This document shows, in pieces, positions 42,650-54,487 of a stretch of DNA of 59,811 nt. A program made the position numbers and the translations under genes. Numbering within the stretch: the first letter of the stretch is position 1; each line of letters starts with the position of its first letter. The DNA is taken from assembly GCA_021324815.1 (NCBI GenBank), contig JAJPIJ010000036.1, positions 1-59,811 of the forward strand. Reading direction: 5' to 3'. The notes below the pieces were generated by a model. The model was not told the DNA's origin. It worked only from the letters and a program-made list of their open reading frames with translations, and did no database searches. This DNA comes from Gammaproteobacteria bacterium (lineage in GTDB: Bacteria > Pseudomonadota > Gammaproteobacteria > JAJPIJ01).

Positions 42650-42663
42650 TTGATGTAAATCAA
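42650..42663. promoter_or_regulatory. Perfect FNR/ANR-type operator with class II promoter spacing
   Basis: TTGATGTAAATCAA matches TTGAT-N4-ATCAA at every position. Its centre is about 41.5 bases before a start site predicted near 42698, and TAAACT (42685-42690), preceded by TGC, is a suitable -10. The flanking intergenic DNA (42403-42741, 339 bases, AT-rich around 42460-42560) holds no other gene I can support. Confidence 0.7.
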
Positions 42664-42741: not shown

Positions 42742-44370
42742 ATGATGTCCATTGGTGCCGGCGGGGGGAAGCAGACGGACGCGCAGGACGCGAGGGTTTG
42801 TGCGTGTCTTGAAAAAATTCTTTTGAACCCGCTGTTTGCGCAATCGGAGCGATTGCAGCGCTTCCTCAAGTTCGTCGTGACTGAAACACTGGCCGGCCGC
42901 ACCGACCGTCTCAAGGGCTATACCATCGGCCTGGAAGTATTCGATCGCCAGTCTGATTTTGATCCAACCATCGACGCCATCGTGCGCGTCGAGGCGGCGC
43001 GGTTGCGCGCCAAGCTGCGCGAATACTACGACGGCGAAGGGCAAGCCGATCCGGTGCGCATCGAGCTGCCCAAGGGCAGCTACACGCCCGTCATCCAGTG
43101 CCGCACGGCCACCGCAACCGAAATCCCCCCGCCGCTGCGCGACACCCCCCTTTTACAAAGGGGGGGTGAGGTGGATTTACGATACCCGCCGCCCATCGAG
43201 GACAAGCCGTCGATCGCCGTGTTGCCGTTCACCAATATGAGCGGCGATCAGGAACAAGGATATTTCGCCGACGGCATCACGGATTGCCTGATCACGGAGC
43301 TTTCCCGGCTGCCGGGATTGTTTGTCATTTCCCGCCATTCGTCCTTCGTCTACAAGGGGGTGTCAAAAAACACCGGGGAGATCGGCAGAGAACTTGGCGT
43401 GAAATACCTGCTGGAAGGCGGCGTGCAGCGGGCGGGCAACCACATGCGCATCACGGCGCAGCTCATCGAGGCCGCCAACGGCGCGCATGTCTGGGCGGAG
43501 CGCTATGACCGGGAACTCAAGGACATCTTTGAAATACAGGACGACGTCATCCGGCGCATTCTTGCGGTGCTGCAAGTCAAGCTTGCCGGCCAGGAGGTCG
43601 GGCACAGAGGTCACGAAGGCACCTGCAGTCTCGGGGCCCATGACTGCCTGCTGCGGGGACTTGAATGCTTTTGGGTGTACTCGCGTGAATCCACGGAAGA
43701 GGCGCGCCGGCACTTCGCACGTGCCGTTGAACTCGATCCGACGTACGCAATTGCCCATGCCTGGCTGGCGAGAGCGCTGGTCTTCCAATGGAGTCAACGA
43801 TGGGATCCCGATCCAAATTTGCTTGAGCGGGCCTTGGAGCATGCCCGCAAAGCGGTCGAATTGAACCCGCAGCTTCCTTTTGCCTACTCCATCCTTTGTT
43901 GGGTGCAGACGTGGCGCAAACAGGGAGAAGCCGCCATCGCCGCAGGCTGGCGCGCGGTGGCGCTCGATCCGAACAACGCCGATGCCCACCTCTTTTTGTC
44001 TTTTGCGCTTGCAGTGGCGAACCGTGCCGAGGAGGCGCTGCATTACATTGAGCAGGGCATACGGCTCAATCCCCACCCTTCCGCCTTCTACCAGCTTGTA
44101 CTCGGCCTGTGTTACCTGGTTCTTGAGGAGTACGAGCAGGCCGTTACGATATTCAAGCGCGGCATAGCGTTGAGGGACGTGTTCGCTCCCAATCACATCT
44201 GGCTATGCGTCGCCTATGCCGCACTGGGACGTGATGAGGAGGCGCGTATTGAACGCGACAAAGTGTTGGCAATTTTACCCGACCGCATACCCATGGGTCA
44301 GGATGTCTGGCTGGACAAAGACCTGAGTCTGCGCATGAACGCGCTGAGACGACTCACCGGCCTTCCGTAG
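42742..44370 (+). CDS. TolB-like/TPR signalling-type protein (intact paralog)
   Basis: The 542-residue protein has three parts. Residues 20-118 form a conserved N-terminal domain (CLEKILLNPLFAQSERLQRF ... DAIVRVEAARLRAKLREYY ... IELPKGSYTPVI). Residues 155-275 form a TolB/FlgO-like domain (SIAVLPFTNMSGDQEQGYFAD, GVKYLLEGGVQRAGNHMRI, AERYDRELKDIFEIQDDV). From 310 on there are TPR repeats. No signal peptide or membrane helix is evident. Residues 127-146 are encoded by an inserted palindromic repeat. Such proteins usually sit with cyclases, kinases or CadC-like regulators, but no catalytic or DNA-binding domain is recognisable here. A perfect FNR-type box upstream suggests anaerobic control. A frameshifted paralog lies at 52875. 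Confidence 0.75.
   Translation: MMSIGAGGGKQTDAQDARVCACLEKILLNPLFAQSERLQRFLKFVVTETLAGRTDRLKGYTIGLEVFDRQSDFDPTIDAIVRVEAARLRAKLREYYDGEGQADPVRIELPKGSYTPVIQCRTATATEIPPPLRDTPLLQRGGEVDLRYPPPIEDKPSIAVLPFTNMSGDQEQGYFADGITDCLITELSRLPGLFVISRHSSFVYKGVSKNTGEIGRELGVKYLLEGGVQRAGNHMRITAQLIEAANGAHVWAERYDRELKDIFEIQDDVIRRILAVLQVKLAGQEVGHRGHEGTCSLGAHDCLLRGLECFWVYSRESTEEARRHFARAVELDPTYAIAHAWLARALVFQWSQRWDPDPNLLERALEHARKAVELNPQLPFAYSILCWVQTWRKQGEAAIAAGWRAVALDPNNADAHLFLSFALAVANRAEEALHYIEQGIRLNPHPSAFYQLVLGLCYLVLEEYEQAVTIFKRGIALRDVFAPNHIWLCVAYAALGRDEEARIERDKVLAILPDRIPMGQDVWLDKDLSLRMNALRRLTGLP
43121..43178. repeat. Palindromic repeat inside a coding gene, copy 1 (G7)
   Basis: The stretch begins AAATCCCCCC and ends GGATTT, with an inner hairpin CACCCCCCTTT/AAAGGGGGGGTG. 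It looks like the intergenic AAATCCCC...GGGGATTT repeats seen in many genomes, but here it is in frame and codes for 20 residues of linker. Its G tract has seven bases, which keeps the frame open. Confidence 0.75.
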
Positions 44371-44373
44371 CTG

Positions 44374-46593
44374 TCAACCCTGCCAGCCGGCCTTGCGCAG
44401 GCCGTCGAGGAAAAACTTGAGGTGCTCCGGGTTCTTGAAGGGATACGTCGCCTCCAGATACTGCCGGAAGAAGGAAGGCATCAACTGGCAGCACTCCTTG
44501 AATGCGGCGCGGGCGCCTTCGAGATCGCCGGCATGGGCAAGCGCCACGGCCAGACGTGTGTGGCCGCGCAGGTTGTTCGGTTGTTCCTGGATGGCGCGGC
44601 GGGCGGAGGCTGCGGCGGCGTCATAATCCCCCGCGAGCAAATAAGCCAGCGCTTCCACCGAGAAGCAGTGAGTAAGAAAGTGATCCATTGGGCTTAAGCG
44701 TATTGCCATCCGTACCGCCGTCATCGCTTCCCGCGGCTCGCCCGAGAACACCAGCACCGTCGCCCGGACGAAGTGGCATATCGGGTTGATGGGATGAAGT
44801 TGCACGGCGAGACGGCTTTCCTCCAGTGCCTGCTCGTGCTGCCTGTTCCATAACAGGCAAACGGCCAGACCGGATTTGACCTGGCCATTCTGCGGGTCCC
44901 TTTTTACTGCGTCTTTTGCGTAGCGCATGGCCTCGCGGAAGGCCGCCGTCGGATCTTCCGTCCATCCCAGCAAGGCGTCCCAGATATAGCTTTCGACAAG
45001 AAATACATAAGAGGGCACAAATGCCGGGTCGCGCTTGATGGCCTTGAGAAATAATTTACGGCCCTGTTCGTTGCCTTCCCTGGTTCTGGCGAACAGCCCT
45101 ATGCCGCGTTGCACCAGCTCCCATACGGTGAGATCAGCGGGCCGCTTGCGCAGTATGCGATGTTGTTCGGCGCGGCTGATCTCCGGGGTGATGGCGGAGA
45201 CGATGCAACGGGTGATTTCATCCTGCAATTCGAAGAGATCGGCGATCTCGCGGTCGTAGCGATCCGTCCAGATTTGGCTGCCGGTTTCGGCGTTCAATAA
45301 GCGGACATTAACGCGAACGCGGTTTCCCGACTTGCGGATGCTGCCCTCGATCACGTAACGCACGCCCAAATCGCTTCCCACCTGCCGGACATCCACAGCC
45401 CTGCCCTTGTAGGCAAAGACCGAGTTGCGCGCGATCACCGGCATCCACCGCCACAACGATAGCGCGGTGATGATGTCGTCGGTCATGCCGTCGGCGAAGA
45501 ACTCCTGCGCCGGGTCTTCGCTTAAGTTCGCGAACGGCAGCACGGCGACCGCAGGCCGATCGCGGATATCCGAGAGGCTGATGCTGGAGCCGCGCAGCCC
45601 TGTGCGCCCGGGGTCCGTCTTGCCCTTGCTCGACGCCGATCGCCCGCTGCGAGTGCGCTGTTTGCCGTGTTTTACAGCCGGGACAACAGTGGCGGCCTCG
45701 GCGGTGAGGTTGAGATCGCGGCGCCAGTCTGGGACGGTCTGCGGGCGATCCCGCTCGCGCAGCGCCAGTGCATGGTCTATGCCTTGAAGCAGGGGTTCCG
45801 GGTAATCGCCGCGCCCTACCTCGACCGCGGGCACGTAACAATCCCGCACGCCCTTGATCAAGGCCGTGCTGCGCTCGATGGCGGAAGGCGGCGTCAGCCC
45901 GCACACGGCCCGATAAAAAGTCGCGCCGCAGGCATAAATATCCGTCCACGGCCCGAGGCATTCCGGCTGGCTCTGATACTGCTCGATGGGTGCATAGCCC
46001 GGTGACACCATTGCAGTCACGTTCGTCGTCGCCGCGCCCAGCGCCTGCCGTGCTGCGCCGAAGTCCAGCAATACTGGCGAACTGTCGGCGCGCAGATAAA
46101 TGTTCGCCGGCTTGATGTCGCGGTGGAGAAAGCCGGCGGCATGCACGTGCTCCAGTCCATCGAGGAGAGGAGGCACGATGCGCAGCAAAGTGGCGGCATC
46201 CAGCCGCTGGCGGTGGGCGAGCCTTTGCTCAAGGCTGACGCCCTCCTCGAAGCGCATGACCATGTAGGCCGTGCCGTTGGCCTCAAACACTGACAAGACG
46301 CGCACGACATAGGGATGGTCGAAGCAGGCCAGCGTGCGCGCCTCGGTCAGAAATTTATCGCGCCAGGCAAGAAAATTCGCTTCCTGATTGGCGGCGCGCG
46401 GCACGACCGTGCCGTCGCCATCGCGGCTGGCGAATTCAGCGGGAAAATATTCCTTGATGGCGACCGGCTGGTGCAGATTACGGTCATGGGCGAGATAAGT
46501 GATGCCGAAGCCGCCCTGGCCCATCACCCCCTCGATCTCGTACCAGTGCAGCCGCGTGCCGGGTGTAAGTGCGTTGTGGTGCCGGTTTTCCAC
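44374..46593 (-). CDS. Serine/threonine protein kinase with TolB-like and TPR domains
   Basis: The 739-residue protein has an N-terminal Hanks-type kinase (glycine loop MGQGGFGITYLA, Lys47 in VAIKEYFP, HRDIKPAN with Asp159, DFGAA at 177, the activation region TAMVSPGYAPIEQY). A basic Ser/Lys/Gly-rich linker (about 305-340) is followed by a TolB/FlgO-like domain (VAVLPFANLSEDPAQEFFAD ... YVIEGSIRKSGNRVRV ... DRYDREIADLFELQDEI) and TPR repeats (510-720). No membrane helix is seen. It lies six bases after the reductase gene on the same strand and ends four bases from the convergent TolB/TPR gene, with which it shares its C-terminal half. Kinase targets are unknown. Confidence 0.88.
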   Translation of the reverse strand: MENRHHNALTPGTRLHWYEIEGVMGQGGFGITYLAHDRNLHQPVAIKEYFPAEFASRDGDGTVVPRAANQEANFLAWRDKFLTEARTLACFDHPYVVRVLSVFEANGTAYMVMRFEEGVSLEQRLAHRQRLDAATLLRIVPPLLDGLEHVHAAGFLHRDIKPANIYLRADSSPVLLDFGAARQALGAATTNVTAMVSPGYAPIEQYQSQPECLGPWTDIYACGATFYRAVCGLTPPSAIERSTALIKGVRDCYVPAVEVGRGDYPEPLLQGIDHALALRERDRPQTVPDWRRDLNLTAEAATVVPAVKHGKQRTRSGRSASSKGKTDPGRTGLRGSSISLSDIRDRPAVAVLPFANLSEDPAQEFFADGMTDDIITALSLWRWMPVIARNSVFAYKGRAVDVRQVGSDLGVRYVIEGSIRKSGNRVRVNVRLLNAETGSQIWTDRYDREIADLFELQDEITRCIVSAITPEISRAEQHRILRKRPADLTVWELVQRGIGLFARTREGNEQGRKLFLKAIKRDPAFVPSYVFLVESYIWDALLGWTEDPTAAFREAMRYAKDAVKRDPQNGQVKSGLAVCLLWNRQHEQALEESRLAVQLHPINPICHFVRATVLVFSGEPREAMTAVRMAIRLSPMDHFLTHCFSVEALAYLLAGDYDAAAASARRAIQEQPNNLRGHTRLAVALAHAGDLEGARAAFKECCQLMPSFFRQYLEATYPFKNPEHLKFFLDGLRKAGWQG

Positions 46594-48331: not shown

Positions 48332-49204
48332 CTACCAGTAGGGCGCCGGCGCAGGGAGGGCTGCGCCACAAGGACATTTCCCCGCGACCTGATCGTAATC
48401 AGACAAGCGCAAACAGGCCGTGCAACGTGACCCAAGGTGTTTGATGCGCACCGGCGACCAGACACTGAGCATCCCACCCAGCGTGAAATCCGAGTTGTAC
48501 ATCCGATCCACCGCCTCCCGATGGGCGCCGATGTTGAATATCTGGCGGACATCTTCAATATTCTCCCAAGCGGTCACTGTGTACATGCGTGGGCCAACAC
48601 CTGCGGTCAGCGCACTGATGAGGCCGGGCAACTTCGCCATTTCGCCATACATCCTGCGGCTGTAGCTGCGCACCTCATCGCGTTCCAGCTCCGAGCGCAC
48701 CTGCAACATAGTCAGGCTGAACGCCCCCGGTTTGGTGAGCTTGCCTTGGTGCAGGTTGACGCTGTAACCAAACTCAACAGGGCCCATCGTGCGCGGCTGA
48801 ACCAGGACCTGCATCCCCAGTTGTTCCGGCACGGCGCGCGAGTCAAAGTAGCCCTTGACCGAACGCACCATGTTGCCATCCAAGGTGATGAAATCCGCGC
48901 CCGGCAACATGATGGGCTTGCCGGACGGTGGCACTCCCCGGTAAGGGCCGTTGTGGGTGCCACGCATGACCCACTGCGCGGACACCGTGCGATCGGCGAT
49001 GAGCTTCGGGCCCGTGATTTCAAATGACAAGTCGGGAAATCCCGCAAACAGGCTCGATGCATAATCGCCGATGGCCTGGCCGGTGACTTCACCGGCGACA
49101 GGATCCCAGTAAGTGCCGCCTTCGGCAAAGGTGGCGACGAGCGCACTGGGATCGCGGCGGTTCCACGCCTCGAAGTAGCGCTGAACGGCGGCGATGGTAT
49201 CCAT
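48332..49204 (-). CDS. SnoaL-like protein fused to a second domain and a C-terminal zinc ribbon
   Basis: The 290-residue protein has a SnoaL/NTF2-like domain (1-130: VQRYFEAWNRRDPSALVATFAEGGTYWDP). The middle segment (about 135-255) has an ABM- or ferredoxin-like feel (GAFSLTMLQVRSELERDEVRSYSRRMYGEMAKLPGL, MYTVTAWENIEDV). The C-terminus holds four cysteines as CTACLRL...GKCPCGA, a probable zinc ribbon. SnoaL-like domains bind small hydrophobic ligands or catalyse cyclisation. The fusion is unusual, and the zinc site suggests binding to a partner or nucleic acid. It lies nine bases after the aldehyde dehydrogenase gene. Confidence 0.75.
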   Translation of the reverse strand: MDTIAAVQRYFEAWNRRDPSALVATFAEGGTYWDPVAGEVTGQAIGDYASSLFAGFPDLSFEITGPKLIADRTVSAQWVMRGTHNGPYRGVPPSGKPIMLPGADFITLDGNMVRSVKGYFDSRAVPEQLGMQVLVQPRTMGPVEFGYSVNLHQGKLTKPGAFSLTMLQVRSELERDEVRSYSRRMYGEMAKLPGLISALTAGVGPRMYTVTAWENIEDVRQIFNIGAHREAVDRMYNSDFTLGGMLSVWSPVRIKHLGSRCTACLRLSDYDQVAGKCPCGAALPAPAPYW

Positions 49205-49213
49205 TTCTCCTCC

Positions 49214-50977
49214 TCAGCCGCGCATCGCGTTGAAGACGATGCCCGGCACCTTGGCCCAGCTCGCATTCTCCTCCATTGCCACGATCCGCGGCACCACCTT
49301 GTGGGCGGTGCGGTGAGTCGGGAAGTAGCCGGGCTTGGGGAAGCCGGTCAGCGGCGCGCGCATCACCACCTTCTCGACGCCTTCCAGCATCGAGGTGTTG
49401 TGCACGAAGCCGCGCCCGCTCTGGATGTTGTCCAACGTTGAGCCCGGATGAGCGCCCCACGGCGGCGAAGCCATCACGAATGACAATCCTGAATAACTAT
49501 TCACCGTGACCGTGCCAAAGCGCAGGCGGGTGATGGCGCGCTCCACCGCCTCGTTCACGCGCGGATCCTTGAGCGATTTCGGATGCACGACGAGGCCCGC
49601 GGTGAGCGTGCCCCAGAGCCTGTTGTTGGCAAAGTCCACCGCCCGGTCCAGAAACTCCAGCGGATCACTGCTGCCCAATCTGGCTTCGGAGATCAGGGAG
49701 CAGAACGGCTCCTGCGAGTACAGCGGCTCGTCGCGCGCATTGGGATCAAGACCGCTGATGAAGGTCCACGGCAGCGTGCCTGCCGCCGCGGTCCCGATCA
49801 TTTTCACATGCGCGCGGCCGGAGGTGAGGGTTCGCCAGCGATCCTCGGCGCCGGGATAATAGGCCTGTCGCGGCGCCGCCGCCGCGCAGATGTCCTGCAT
49901 GCCCTTGACGAAGATATCGCTGCCATTCCAGCCTTTGGGCAGCGCCAGCATCTTCGAGGCGTTGCAAAGGAATGAGGCGTTCATGAGAAAGTAACTCGCC
50001 GCGTCCTCGGCCTGGAAGCGCAGTTCCTTCTCGCTGTAGGGGCCGGGCACGACGATGACCGGCGTGATGTTGCCGAGCTCGGAGGTGATGGGTTTCTTCA
50101 GCAGCGGATCGTTGCGCTGCATGCGCGCCTCGCGCTCCACCCCGGGCGGCCCCCAGACGATGTTGTCATGGGCCTTGTCGGAGCCGGTGATGTGCACCTC
50201 GTCGATGTCACGGTGGTAAACGAGATAGCGGCCTTCCTCGGCGCCGCCATACGTCACGGCGAGAAAATTCCGCTGGATGGCCTCGGCGAAGGCTTCCTCG
50301 ATGTAAGGGCCGATGTAGGCGTTCACCGGGTTCATCTTGATCAAACAAACCCTGCCCTCGTTGAACAGGAAGGTGATCGCATCCATGGAGGGAATGGCGG
50401 CAATGTTGCCGGCACCCAGTATCAACACCACCCGTCCATCGTGTGCGGGGTGCTTGTAGAAACCGGCGCGGGAGGATGAGAGTTTCTCTTCCGTGACGCC
50501 GGGCTGCATGTGCACATCGATGCTCCAGTCCTTGAACAGCATTCCGTCGATGGCATTGCCGGGAAACAGGCGCACCGCGAGCCGTCCGTCGATGGTTCTG
50601 CCCACCGGACCGATGGGCGTATTGCCGGTTTGCTTGAGCGCTTGCATCGATTCGCGGATGAGGCGCAGTTGCCGCACCACGCCCCAGGGGCCGGTGGCCC
50701 ATTCCTCGGCCTCCATCGGTGTGCCCATGGCGATGCCCTTGGCCCGGCAGCCGGCCTCCACGCTGCGCCCGGCAACGCGGAGATACCCGCGCTGCATGCC
50801 TTCGGCGAGCCGGATGCGCTCATCGATGGACAGCCGTGCGAAGGTTCTGGCGCCTTCGCGCAGGCGTTTGATGGCGGCATCCATCTGCGACTGGCTGGAA
50901 TTGGGCGGCGCATGGACCGCCGGGCTTACTGCATAACTGGCGAACTCTCGCAATTTCATGACCGCGCTCATGTTCAT
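49214..50977 (-). CDS. Aldehyde dehydrogenase superfamily protein
   Basis: The 587-residue protein is longer than typical aldehyde dehydrogenases (about 480-500). Catalytic features are present: Glu300 in TSELGNITPVIV, Cys338 in NASFLCNAS, and the cofactor-binding LGAGNIAAIPSMDAITFLFNEG. The N-terminal 60 residues and the loop carrying GAEEGRYLVYHRDID are atypical. It could oxidise a large or aromatic aldehyde, or reduce an acyl thioester; the sequence cannot decide. It leads a run of four metabolic genes on the minus strand. Confidence 0.87.
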   Translation of the reverse strand: MNMSAVMKLREFASYAVSPAVHAPPNSSQSQMDAAIKRLREGARTFARLSIDERIRLAEGMQRGYLRVAGRSVEAGCRAKGIAMGTPMEAEEWATGPWGVVRQLRLIRESMQALKQTGNTPIGPVGRTIDGRLAVRLFPGNAIDGMLFKDWSIDVHMQPGVTEEKLSSSRAGFYKHPAHDGRVVLILGAGNIAAIPSMDAITFLFNEGRVCLIKMNPVNAYIGPYIEEAFAEAIQRNFLAVTYGGAEEGRYLVYHRDIDEVHITGSDKAHDNIVWGPPGVEREARMQRNDPLLKKPITSELGNITPVIVVPGPYSEKELRFQAEDAASYFLMNASFLCNASKMLALPKGWNGSDIFVKGMQDICAAAAPRQAYYPGAEDRWRTLTSGRAHVKMIGTAAAGTLPWTFISGLDPNARDEPLYSQEPFCSLISEARLGSSDPLEFLDRAVDFANNRLWGTLTAGLVVHPKSLKDPRVNEAVERAITRLRFGTVTVNSYSGLSFVMASPPWGAHPGSTLDNIQSGRGFVHNTSMLEGVEKVVMRAPLTGFPKPGYFPTHRTAHKVVPRIVAMEENASWAKVPGIVFNAMRG

Positions 50978-51119
50978 TCTCCTCTTCAGGTTATTCCGGC
51001 TTCGGCGGCAGGGAGATTTTTGCGCATCGCCGGTGGTTCGGAAATTTCCACGTCATCGCGAAAAGGCAGGCCGGCCTCCAGCTTTGACGCCGAGAGGCCG
51101 GTCTCCGCTGACTGCACGA

Positions 51120-51635
51120 TCACTTGCTGGCCACGGGCAGGCTGGTCTGACCCACCCAGTTGGCGACATAGTCCGTCGGCGAGGTGTAGTAGCCGCTGTA
51201 AGTGCCCTGACCCTGGATGCCCTGATACTTGCCGGTGCCCTTGACCTGCTCCCACGTGCCGACGAAGCTGATCTGCGGCTGGCCTTTCGACATGACCGTG
51301 CTCACATTGCCGCTCCATTTGATGTCAACCGAGCCGTCACCTTTGGTGAAGACGAGGTAGCCCTGATGCGGGCCGCTGCCTTGCAGGAGGGAGACGACCT
51401 CTTTGTTGACGATTTGCGCGCCGTCCATGAAGTTGGCGCTCTTGTTGGTGCCATGCGACTCATCCAGCATCAGCATGTCGCCGGCCTGGCTGGTGACCGG
51501 CAAAACCTCCTGCTTCGTCACTTTCGCGGTGAACGAACCGGAGATGGGATCAGCCTGGACAGTCAAGCTCACCGCAAATGCGCCCGTTATCAGTAACCGT
51601 ATTGCACTTCTTGGAATTAAAGCTGACGTTTTCAT
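51120..51635 (-). CDS. Small exported protein, allene-oxide-cyclase-barrel-like
   Basis: The 171-residue protein has a signal peptide (SAIRLLITGAFAVSLTVQA, then DPISG) and a beta-rich body. FVGTWEQVKGTGKYQGIQGQGTYSG is similar to the GTGKFKGIxGxGTY motif of barrel-type proteins annotated as allene oxide cyclase-like. Function unknown; probably periplasmic or secreted. The start at 51635 has GAGGG upstream; a longer frame to 51713 would begin inside a conserved regulatory element and is rejected. Confidence 0.75.
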   Translation of the reverse strand: MKTSALIPRSAIRLLITGAFAVSLTVQADPISGSFTAKVTKQEVLPVTSQAGDMLMLDESHGTNKSANFMDGAQIVNKEVVSLLQGSGPHQGYLVFTKGDGSVDIKWSGNVSTVMSKGQPQISFVGTWEQVKGTGKYQGIQGQGTYSGYYTSPTDYVANWVGQTSLPVASK

Positions 51636-51689
51636 AAGCAGGCCCTCTTTTGTAGGCGGGAAATCACGTTGCGATTGCAACGCTCGAAT

Positions 51690-51743
51690 GAAGTTTGAAT
51701 GTAAAGCCGCCACGAACGTAGTTTGTAACGGTTAGTAACCTTG
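51690..51743 (+). promoter_or_regulatory. Conserved ~50-bp element, copy A
   Basis: On the plus strand the blocks GAAGTTTG, GTAGTTT and AACGGTTAGTAAC occur in this order; 29 bases separate GAAGTTTG from AACGGTTA. TAAC-G-GTTA-G-TAAC holds overlapping dyads. It ends about 55 bases before the start of the minus-strand exported gene, in opposite orientation. Two more copies lie at 52672 and 52770. Confidence 0.6.
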
Positions 51744-51839
51744 GGAACGACTGGCCGGCCGGATTGCTTTTGCGGCATCAATCCAGCGGTGATGTCACCT
51801 TCTCAAAATGGCGATTTGCGCCGAGGGTTAAGTCAGGGT

Positions 51840-51998
51840 TTATGCCGCCATCGGCAGCAGGCGGCCCCGCCGCCACAGCGCAGCAAGCTGCGTGAAGAGA
51901 CCCGGAGCCCTGGCAAGCAGTTCGTCGAGATTACCGTAACCGCGATTGACGGCCTGATTCGCAAGCCATGCCGCCTGTTCCGTAATGTCGCTTTCCAT
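51840..51998 (-). CDS. Possible small hypothetical protein
   Basis: A 52-codon frame starting MESDITEQAAWLANQAVNRG and ending in WRRGRLLPMAA has an amphipathic, protein-like pattern, unlike its surroundings. No ribosome site stands out and no family is recognised. It could also be the 3' end of a longer decayed gene, since the same frame is open up to 52283. The rest of 51744-52298 holds nothing else I can support. Confidence 0.3.
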   Translation of the reverse strand: MESDITEQAAWLANQAVNRGYGNLDELLARAPGLFTQLAALWRRGRLLPMAA

Positions 51999-52298
51999 AA
52001 GGGCACGCCGCGTATTCCAACTGACCACCAGCGGACACGATCGCCCGTCCGCCTGGCGGGTAAGGCATGCCGATCCCGCGTTGAGCAAGGTAGTCAGAAG
52101 TCGATTGCCTTTGCGTGTGTTCATGTTGCCCAAGAATGGCATCGGCATTGGCATGGTGGAGATAAAAAGCGGGCGCGCCCGGCACCCTTCCTCCCCGGCG
52201 TCGCCGCGTAATCCGATGGATGTCGGACCATGCAGGCGACGACTTTGGAGGTCAGATAATCCGGGCGCGTCCATTGGGGCCACAGTAGTCGCACCGAT

Positions 52299-52628
52299 TT
52301 AGCGGATCGACACTTCCGCTTTTACCGGCACCGCATCGAATCGATGGCAGTAGCTGGCGCTGGTCATGCACTTGAGCGAATCCGTCCAGTTGCGCCCCCC
52401 CTGATAAGGTTCCGCCACTTCCCTCTCGCGTAACTGGGAATTCGTCCCTGGGTGGAACCCGATCTCCGTGACCAGTCCGGGCTGCCCGACTGTCGAGTCC
52501 TGTATCCGGGCATCCGTCCACGGTTGGAAACCCATACCGCCCGCGGCATGAGCGGCTCCAACCAGTACCATGGACAACACTGATGCACTGAGCACCTTCA
52601 TGGGAATGAAACGTTTTGCATTACGCAT
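52299..52628 (-). CDS. Small exported hypothetical protein
   Basis: The 109-residue protein has a signal peptide (MKVLSASVLSMVLVGAAHA) and a short mature part rich in Gly, Thr and Gln, with two cysteines (KCMTSASYCHRF) that could form a disulfide. No family is recognised. A second ATG nine codons in gives a tidier signal peptide. It is divergent from the frameshifted TolB/TPR gene, and two copies of the conserved element lie between them. Confidence 0.6.
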   Translation of the reverse strand: MRNAKRFIPMKVLSASVLSMVLVGAAHAAGGMGFQPWTDARIQDSTVGQPGLVTEIGFHPGTNSQLREREVAEPYQGGRNWTDSLKCMTSASYCHRFDAVPVKAEVSIR

Positions 52629-52671
52629 GGTTTACCTCCATCAGTTGAACAGGCTGCAATTCAGCCTGAGC

Positions 52672-52721
52672 GAAGTTTGGTTCAATGCCTGCGGCAAATG
52701 TAGTTTCAAACGGTTAATGAC
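52672..52721 (+). promoter_or_regulatory. Conserved ~50-bp element, copy B
   Basis: GAAGTTTG, GTAGTTT and AACGGTTAATGAC occur with the same 29-base gap as copy A. It ends about 45 bases before the start of the minus-strand exported gene, in the same relation as copy A has to its gene. Confidence 0.6.
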
Positions 52722-52769
52722 TTTTCGTAAAACGCCAATGCATTGATCGGGCAATGGTTCGGCCCGAGT

Positions 52770-52818
52770 GGAGTTTGGTCTAATATGTGATCCAGCGTAA
52801 TCGCTAACGGTTAGTAAC
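52770..52818 (+). promoter_or_regulatory. Conserved ~50-bp element, copy C
   Basis: GGAGTTTG and AACGGTTAGTAAC occur with a gap of 28 bases; the middle GTAGTTT block is weaker (GTAATC). It starts 98 bases after copy B as a tandem direct repeat, and ends 56 bases before the plus-strand TolB/TPR gene. Confidence 0.55.
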
Positions 52819-52874
52819 TTTGAAAGCGGCACTAGTGCACGGATGCTACCCGTGGTGCCCTTGGGGAATTCCTG

Positions 52875-54487
52875 ATGGCGGAACGAAAAACAGAGCGGGC
52901 AAACGCGGAAACTACCGAGGTTCGCGCCTGTCTCGAAAAAATTCTGATTAGTCACCCGTTCGCGCAGTCCGAGCGCCAGCAGCGTTTCCTCAAGTACCTT
53001 GTTAACGAGACGCTGGCTGGCCACGCCGAAAAGCTCAAGGGCTACACCATCGGCGTGGAGGTCTTCGACCGGGACTCCGATTTTGATCCGACGGTGGATG
53101 CCATCGTGCGCGTTGAGGCCGTGCGGCTGCGCGCCAAGCTGCGTGAATACTACGACAACGAGGGCCGCAGCGACTCACTGCGCATCGAGCTGCCGAAGGG
53201 CGGCTACATGCCGGTCATCCAGCCCCGCGTGAGCCAGGAAATCCCCCCGCCGCTGCGCGACACCCCACCTTTACAAAGGGGGGTGAGGGGGATTTACGAC
53301 ACCCGCCGATCATCGAGGACAAGCCGTCGCTGGCGGTGCTGCCGTTTGCCAATTTGAGCAGCGACCCTGAGCAGGAATATTTTGCCGACGGCATCACCGA
53401 GTGCCTGCTCATGGAGCTGTCAAGATTGTCGGGACTGTTTGTCATCTCCCGTCATTCCTCGTTTCTTTACAAAGGCCGGTCAAAGCGGGCCGAGGAGATC
53501 GGCGCCGAGCTCGGCGTGAGATTCCTCGTGGAAGGGAGCGTGCAACGTTCGGGATCGCAGGTGCGCATCACCGCCCAGTTGATCGACGCCAGCACGGGCG
53601 CACACCTGTGGGCGGAACGTTACGACCGTGAGCTTAAGGATATCTTTGCATTGCAGGACGATGTGACGCAGCACATCGTTGCCGTGTTGCAGGTGAGGCT
53701 CGGCAGTGACGATCAGAAACGTGCAAGCCATCAGGGCACCGCCAGCCTCGAAGCCCACGACCACGTGTTGCACGGCCTGGAGCGTTTCTGGACCTACGAG
53801 CGGGAGCCCGTTGAAGAATCCTCCGCCTTGTTTGCGAAAGCCGTTGAACTCGATCCGGGTTACGCCTTCGCGCATGCGTGGCTTGCCCGCGTCTTGACAT
53901 TCTGTTGGGCCATGTTATGGGACTCCCGCGAGGAGACCCTGACGCGGGCGTTTGATCATGCCCGCATGGCGGTCGATCTGGCGCCGCAACTGCCGTACGC
54001 CCACGCGGTTTTGTGCTGGTTGCAGATCTGGCGCAAGCAAAGCGAGGCGGCCATCGCCGCGGGCTGGCGGGCGGTGACGCTGGACCCGAACAATGCCGAC
54101 GCCCATTTCTTTCTGTCCATTGCCTTCTCGACCGCGGCGCGTGGAGAAGAAGCGTTGCACCATATCAGCAAGGCGTTGCGGCTCAATCCTCATCCCTCCG
54201 CTCTCTATCAATGGGGATTGGGCATGTGTTACTTCGTGTTGGAGGAGTACGACCAAGCCATCGCGGCATGCCGGCGCGGTGTCGAATTGAAGGATGCATT
54301 CATTTCCAATCACTTCTGGCTGTGCGTGACCTACACGCTGCTTGGACGTGATGAGGAGGCGCGGATTGAGCGCGAGAAGGCGCTCACACTCAGCGGCGGG
54401 CACAAGCCGGTGGTCCGTGGGATCTGGGTGGAGGAGGATTTGCGCCTGCGCATGAGGGGCTTGGCGCTGCTTGCCGGGCTGGCATAG
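52875..54487 (+). pseudogene. TolB-like/TPR protein, frameshifted paralog (G6 tract)
   Basis: This gene has the same domain order as the 42742 protein: N-terminal domain (CLEKILISHPFAQSERQQRF ... AIVRVEAVRLRAKLREYY), TolB-like domain (LAVLPFANLSSDPEQEYFAD ... FLVEGSVQRSGSQVRI) and TPR repeats. The first frame leaves the family after EIPPPLRDTPPLQRG; the second resumes at IIEDKPSLAVLPFANL. The break is in the palindromic repeat: this copy has six G (53278-53283) where the intact paralog has seven. One added G restores a 537-residue protein. Loss of function, a sequencing error, or slippage-driven on/off switching are all possible. Confidence 0.75.
53239..53295. repeat. Palindromic repeat inside a coding gene, copy 2 (G6)
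   Basis: This is the same AAATCCCCCC...GGGGATTT repeat as at 43121, with inner hairpin CACCCCACCTTT/AAAGGGGGGTG. It sits at the same place in the protein. Its G tract has six bases and breaks the reading frame. Confidence 0.75.

Follow-up and report, generated by a model that had tools for sequence, protein, structure and literature searches.

HilA, the activator of Salmonella SPI-1, is a member of the OmpR/ToxR family that acts directly at its target promoters (PMC7232297). Its soluble-type architecture, with a winged helix at the N-terminus and a TPR region after it, is also predicted for a regulator encoded beside a ~50-bp repeated element in the window, i.e., the 59,811-nt stretch of DNA analyzed here. 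The C-terminal part of the regulator matched the NCBIfam HilA/EilA model with E-values of 4e-9 to 7e-9, and since its score was 35 bits against a cut-off of 589, we did not classify the protein as HilA. It further differs from HilA in that its N-terminal domain has no Pfam or NCBIfam match, and in that its putative targets are exported proteins and small enzymes rather than a type III secretion system. CadC/ToxR-type one-component regulators possess an OmpR-like DNA-binding domain; that of CadC was among the fold matches of the regulator (Z 5.3, a commonplace value for the tool), and the regulator's TolB_N-like region gave a weak match to the CadC model. Unlike these proteins, however, the regulator carries a TPR array, and no transmembrane segment was apparent on inspection of its full-length relatives. 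Winged-helix similarity extends to the PhoB/OmpR response regulators, including the PhoB-pho box complex 1gxp (Z 6.3, also commonplace), and the DNA element itself recalls the pho box in that the putative operator would lie directly upstream of the -10, replacing the -35, with a repeat period near one helical turn. A receiver domain was not found in the regulator, however, and the half-sites, set 10 bp apart, are dyad-like and do not form plain direct repeats, whereas most OmpR/PhoB members bind direct repeats (PMC3960148).

Table 1. Coordinates of the element copies, neighboring window genes, and transporter genes of related genomes.
Feature	Position	Strand	Details
Element copy 1 (c1)	51690..51739	-	box GTTACTAACC GTTACAAACT, 22 nt, CAAACT at 51697-51692
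Element copy 2 (c2)	52672..52721	-	box GTCATTAACC GTTTGAAACT, 22 nt, CAAACT
Element copy 3 (c3)	52770..52818	-	box GTTACTAACC GTTAGCGATT, 21 nt, CAAACT
SnoaL-like protein	48332..49204	-	next gene downstream of the aldehyde-dehydrogenase-like gene; homologues in same cluster in relatives
Aldehyde-dehydrogenase-like protein	49214..50977	-	downstream of c1
Small exported protein	51123..51632	-	signal-peptide-like start MKTSALIPRSAIRLLITGAFAVSLTVQA; orthologues adjoin regulator in G002, G003
Second small exported protein, 109 aa	52299..52628	-	GGAGG ribosome site
Regulator, N-terminal part	52875..53357	+	winged-helix-like DNA-binding domain, model pLDDT 88
Regulator, C-terminal part	53336..54487	+	TPR; different frame from N-terminal part
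Cation-efflux (CDF) transporter genes	L044:6920-8710, L051:319-1227, L046:3759-4769		adjoin element in relatives

As reported in the initial annotation, the window contains three copies of the element (c1-c3; Table 1), in which GAAGTTTG, GAAGTTTG, and GGAGTTTG blocks lie 29, 29, and 28 bases ahead of the AACGGTTAGTAAC-type blocks. Each copy is ~50 bp long, is read on the minus strand toward minus-strand genes, and consists of a 20-bp box (consensus GTTACTAACC GTTAGAAACT), a spacer, and the hexamer CAAACT, after which a pyrimidine-rich stretch follows. Judged from its sequence, the hexamer is -10-like, and starts (+1) are predicted near 51685 (c1), 52667 (c2), and 52765 (c3). The interpretation given in that annotation was upheld in part. 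It had not noted that the GAAGTTTG half is a -10-like region and not a second operator. Copy c1 is upstream of the gene at 51123-51632, whose ATG is at about +51 of the predicted start, while c2 and c3 are both upstream of 52299-52628, whose ATG is at about +40 and +137 of the respective predicted starts. Lying 97 bp farther out than c2 and 57 bp from the start of the divergent regulator gene (52875+), c3 could be either a second, upstream promoter of 52299-52628 or an operator situated between 52299-52628 and the regulator. The initial annotation had not linked the element to this regulator gene. A promoter search of the region 50900-52900 found no sigma-70-like promoter. When symmetry was scored over 12 distinct boxes, a dyad on TAAC-N-GTTA ranked first with a mean match of 0.68 and a 10-bp direct repeat second with 0.52, confirming that the overlapping dyads described earlier in the core are real and conserved. 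The c1 and c2 transcripts would each begin with a short perfect stem-loop (51685-51660 and 52667-52645), the two differing in sequence and having no conserved counterpart at the other sites. We considered a 5' stem-loop at the predicted +1, seemingly kept in c1-c3, as a further component; folding z scores ranged from -2.7 to +1.0 across 14 sites, however, so it was placed outside the element.

The copies are unlikely to have arisen by chance. AACGGTTAGTAAC occurs exactly at 51727-51739 and 52806-52818, and AACGGTTAATGAC, with two mismatches to it, at 52709-52721; these were the sole matches at ≤2 mismatches in 59.8 kb, whereas shuffled windows contained a mean of 0.16 matches and reached three in 1 of 100 cases. 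A search of the 2.37-Mb genome with AACGGTTARTRAC at ≤1 mismatch returned the c1-c3 sites and one chance-level site (reversed control, 3), and the two-block pattern matched c1 and c2 alone, the c3 spacer being one base shorter. Since the genome of the window thus holds no further good copies, the element does not define a genome-wide regulon there. A putative copy, TAACTAATCGTA, upstream of the regulator's paralogue at 42742 was rejected, as it ranked 13,568 of 119,588 positions with the matrix described below and 237 of 500 shuffles scored as well. Similarity within the element was 0.74 for c1/c2 and 0.68 for c1/c3, while flanks were at or near the shuffled level. Considering that the c2/c3 flanks showed borderline similarity, a local duplication of this pair is possible; flank comparison of the c1-c3 pairs nevertheless revealed no transposed segment of greater length around the copies, one of the two findings that would have spoken against the initial proposal.

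The element recurs with the same geometry in five related genomes (G002, G003, G123, G211, and G313), giving 14 sites in six genomes including that of the window. Spacing is fixed in 13 of these sites, c3 being one base shorter, and the -10 varies to CATACT, CACACT, or GATACT in the relatives. Both G002 and G003, which belong to the family of the window's genome, carry the regulator and the exported gene together, divergent and about 0.6 kb apart. Using a matrix built from the three window copies alone, we found that the top match among 31,968 (G002) and 21,346 (G003) positions fell in the intergenic region between these two genes, in the same orientation and register as the window copies; by eye, this site is also the best-conserved block of their intergenic alignment. 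Both genomes have a second site, with about 20 identical bases, which is followed by a different small exported gene and then by an aldehyde-dehydrogenase-like gene. The same box and spacing were found in G211, where the element is followed in one direction by an exported SnoaL-like gene, a dehydrogenase-like gene, a SnoaL gene, and the regulator; in G123, where it lies before a gene that encodes an exported EF-hand protein and runs divergently from the regulator gene; and in G313, where the gene behind one site encodes a relative of the window's exported protein and another site is divergent from the regulator. The congener G001 has neither regulator, exported gene, nor element, and in G088, which is congeneric with G211, matches to both the regulator and the element were lacking. 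A cation-efflux (CDF) transporter gene adjoins the element in G123, G211 (C20), and G313 (C334), which may hint at a metal-related signal.

The consensus pattern was scanned across 369 genomes of the class. Results showed seven matches in four genomes (reversed control, 0). Each of the four carries a regulator homologue at E below 1e-40, and the remaining 365 genomes contained no match to the pattern. Since the pattern was drawn up with four of the seven sites already known, the independent evidence consists of the three new ones (G211 C20, G211 C46, and G313 C380). Moreover, G211 and G313 share one family, and G000, G002, and G003 another, so the co-occurrences are not fully independent. With the gap one base shorter, the same pattern found c3 alone, against three control matches. 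The consensus pattern itself is strict, failing to match c2, c3, and the sites of G002 and G003, such that the lack of a match argues only weakly for absence. No further genomes with the regulator came from searching the orders to which G211 and G123 belong.

The initial annotation had placed the element before genes for small exported proteins, and conservation of the element across families strongly supports an operator-like element there. Indeed, 12 of the 14 sites are followed, at 31-137 nt between predicted start and start codon, by a gene whose N-terminus resembles a signal peptide, as called by hydropathy and by eye (the G313 C291 reading frame is poor). The proteins come from several unrelated families, i.e., the 51123 family, SnoaL-like and EF-hand proteins, and two matchless ones. 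Both exceptions are in G211, where C20 is followed by an apparent remnant of an exported gene and C46 lies near a contig end. Neither the 51123-51632 product, for which Pfam and NCBIfam were searched, nor the 52299-52628 product matched a family, and when solved structures were searched by sequence, the exported protein, the dehydrogenase-like protein, and the regulator domain all lacked a significant relative. In G002, G003, and G211, homologues of 49214-50977 likewise follow an element. Farther along the minus-strand gene string downstream of c1, 44374-46593 (-) encodes a Ser/Thr kinase domain and a TPR region in one protein, the middle part of which resembles, by eye, the TolB-like part of the regulator.

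Intact relatives of the regulator (G003, G211) are single chains in which an N-terminal domain of ~110 residues precedes a TolB_N-like region, itself a weak match, and TPRs; the DNA-binding domain and TPR region are thus found in one protein. A model of the N-terminal domain (m29fa1ab89777, pLDDT 88) has helices up to residue 95 and strands at 102-105 and 114-117, forming a helix-turn-helix and a C-terminal beta-hairpin wing. The N-terminal beta-sheet platform was not found in this model, which opens with a long helix (2-24) and has no N-terminal strands. The best solved matches by VIA-align were OmpR/PhoB-type DNA-binding domains, including SaeR, PhoB, and CadC (Z 5.3-6.6, a range the tool calls common), while Foldseek returned no significant match. 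Because of the latter result and the missing N-terminal strands, we regard the modeled domain as winged-helix-like only and not as an OmpR/PhoB member. Domains of this kind are present in several families of the class, and a scan of viral contigs revealed one weak relative only. Our literature search found no paper on regulators combining winged-helix-like, TolB_N-like, and TPR parts.

A scan of genome contigs returned two loci only, both already known. The regulator beside the element has an intact paralogue at 42742 (+), open for 560 aa. The TPR half of the regulator beside the element is out of frame because a poly-G tract is one base shorter, with G6 at about 53278-53283 versus G7 in the paralogue near 43160. 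This frameshift may reflect an assembly error, a broken gene (pseudogene), or a phase-variable switch, and the same boxes could be used by the paralogue, which is intact. The tract lies inside a repeat-like insert in the linker (CCTTTACAAAGGGGGG...GATTT; 53268-53295 and about 43146-43180), which both paralogues carry and of which three weaker copies (3 mismatches) occur elsewhere in the genome. Upstream of the paralogue, at 42650-42663, is TTGATGTAAATCAA, a candidate FNR/ANR-like box of perfect sequence, ~41 bases ahead of a predicted start with an extended -10, TGCTAAACT.

Taken together, each copy is probably an activator-dependent promoter, read on the minus strand and bound by a HilA/CadC-like one-component regulator. 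Its operator of ~20 bp (GTTANTNACN GTTANNAACT) would lie at about -54 to -35 of the predicted start, where it would replace the consensus -35 next to a weak -10 (CAAACT). Either the adjacent regulator (52875+) or the intact paralogue (42742+) would most likely bind this operator and bring RNA polymerase to the genes for small exported proteins and to those that follow, with transcription from c1 possibly reading through into 50977-48332. A box with constant spacing to the -10 that follows it, together with the missing consensus -35, is the arrangement of an activator-dependent promoter. Against this explanation, the dyad slightly exceeds the direct repeat in strength, a less common situation for OmpR-type domains; a frameshift separates the two halves of the regulator next to the window copies; and G211 C20 and C46 have no intact exported gene after them. 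The frameshift, beside copies that look intact, would favor recognition of the element by an unlinked DNA-binding protein, with the linked regulator a bystander of the cluster. We consider this quite improbable, as matches in the class-wide scan were confined to genomes that encode a close homologue of the regulator, and each of the six genomes has one or more copies within the regulator's own cluster, although gene orders and targets differ.

The position of c3 between the two genes of a divergent pair, at 57 bp from the start of the regulator, and of sites between the regulator and a divergent exported gene in G002, G003, G123, and G313, would also suit a regulator acting as a repressor or divergent autoregulator. 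However, the box is upstream of the -10 and start and not over them, and it always points to exported genes, even where the regulator is downstream in the same direction (G211). Since there is no sigma-70-like -35, the promoter would moreover be weak without an activator, and repression or divergent autoregulation by the same protein is rather unlikely. Two conserved blocks at fixed spacing before exported-protein genes could instead be the -35 and -10 elements recognized by an alternative (ECF-type) sigma factor acting without a separate activator. ECF promoters have a spacing of 16-17 nt. This is exceeded by the box-to-(-10) gap of about 22 nt; the upstream block, at ~20 bp with an internal dyad and repeat, is far longer than a sigma -35; and the linked gene encodes a winged-helix-like protein rather than a sigma factor, leaving this explanation highly doubtful. 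Finally, that the copies are chance similarities or parts of a repeat or mobile element is extremely unlikely: the borderline c2/c3 flanks are compatible with local duplication, but the other flank pairs do not match, no dispersed copies exist in the genome, and the same register is conserved across families.

Considering that the same element lies beside the same regulator in five related bacteria, it appears to define a real but small undescribed regulon. The regulon proposed initially was therefore supported in kind, though not in extent: the window's genome has a single locus, scattered sites occur in G211 and G313 only, and the motif search across that genome added no good copy, while the element recurs in the five relatives. 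A further proposal, which we regard as unlikely, is that soluble winged-helix, TolB_N-like, and TPR one-component regulators for small exported proteins constitute an undescribed regulon family, in which poly-G slippage (G6 vs. G7) would switch the window regulator by uncoupling its DNA-binding half from its sensor half.

As judged from sequence, the element is a real, conserved, and apparently undescribed operator-promoter with a probable partner regulator, small in scope. An operator tied to a regulator provides a target sequence, a direct binding test, and a set of target genes, here small exported proteins and SnoaL-like and aldehyde-dehydrogenase-like enzymes. Such a conserved operator could make an uncharacterized class of regulators tractable.
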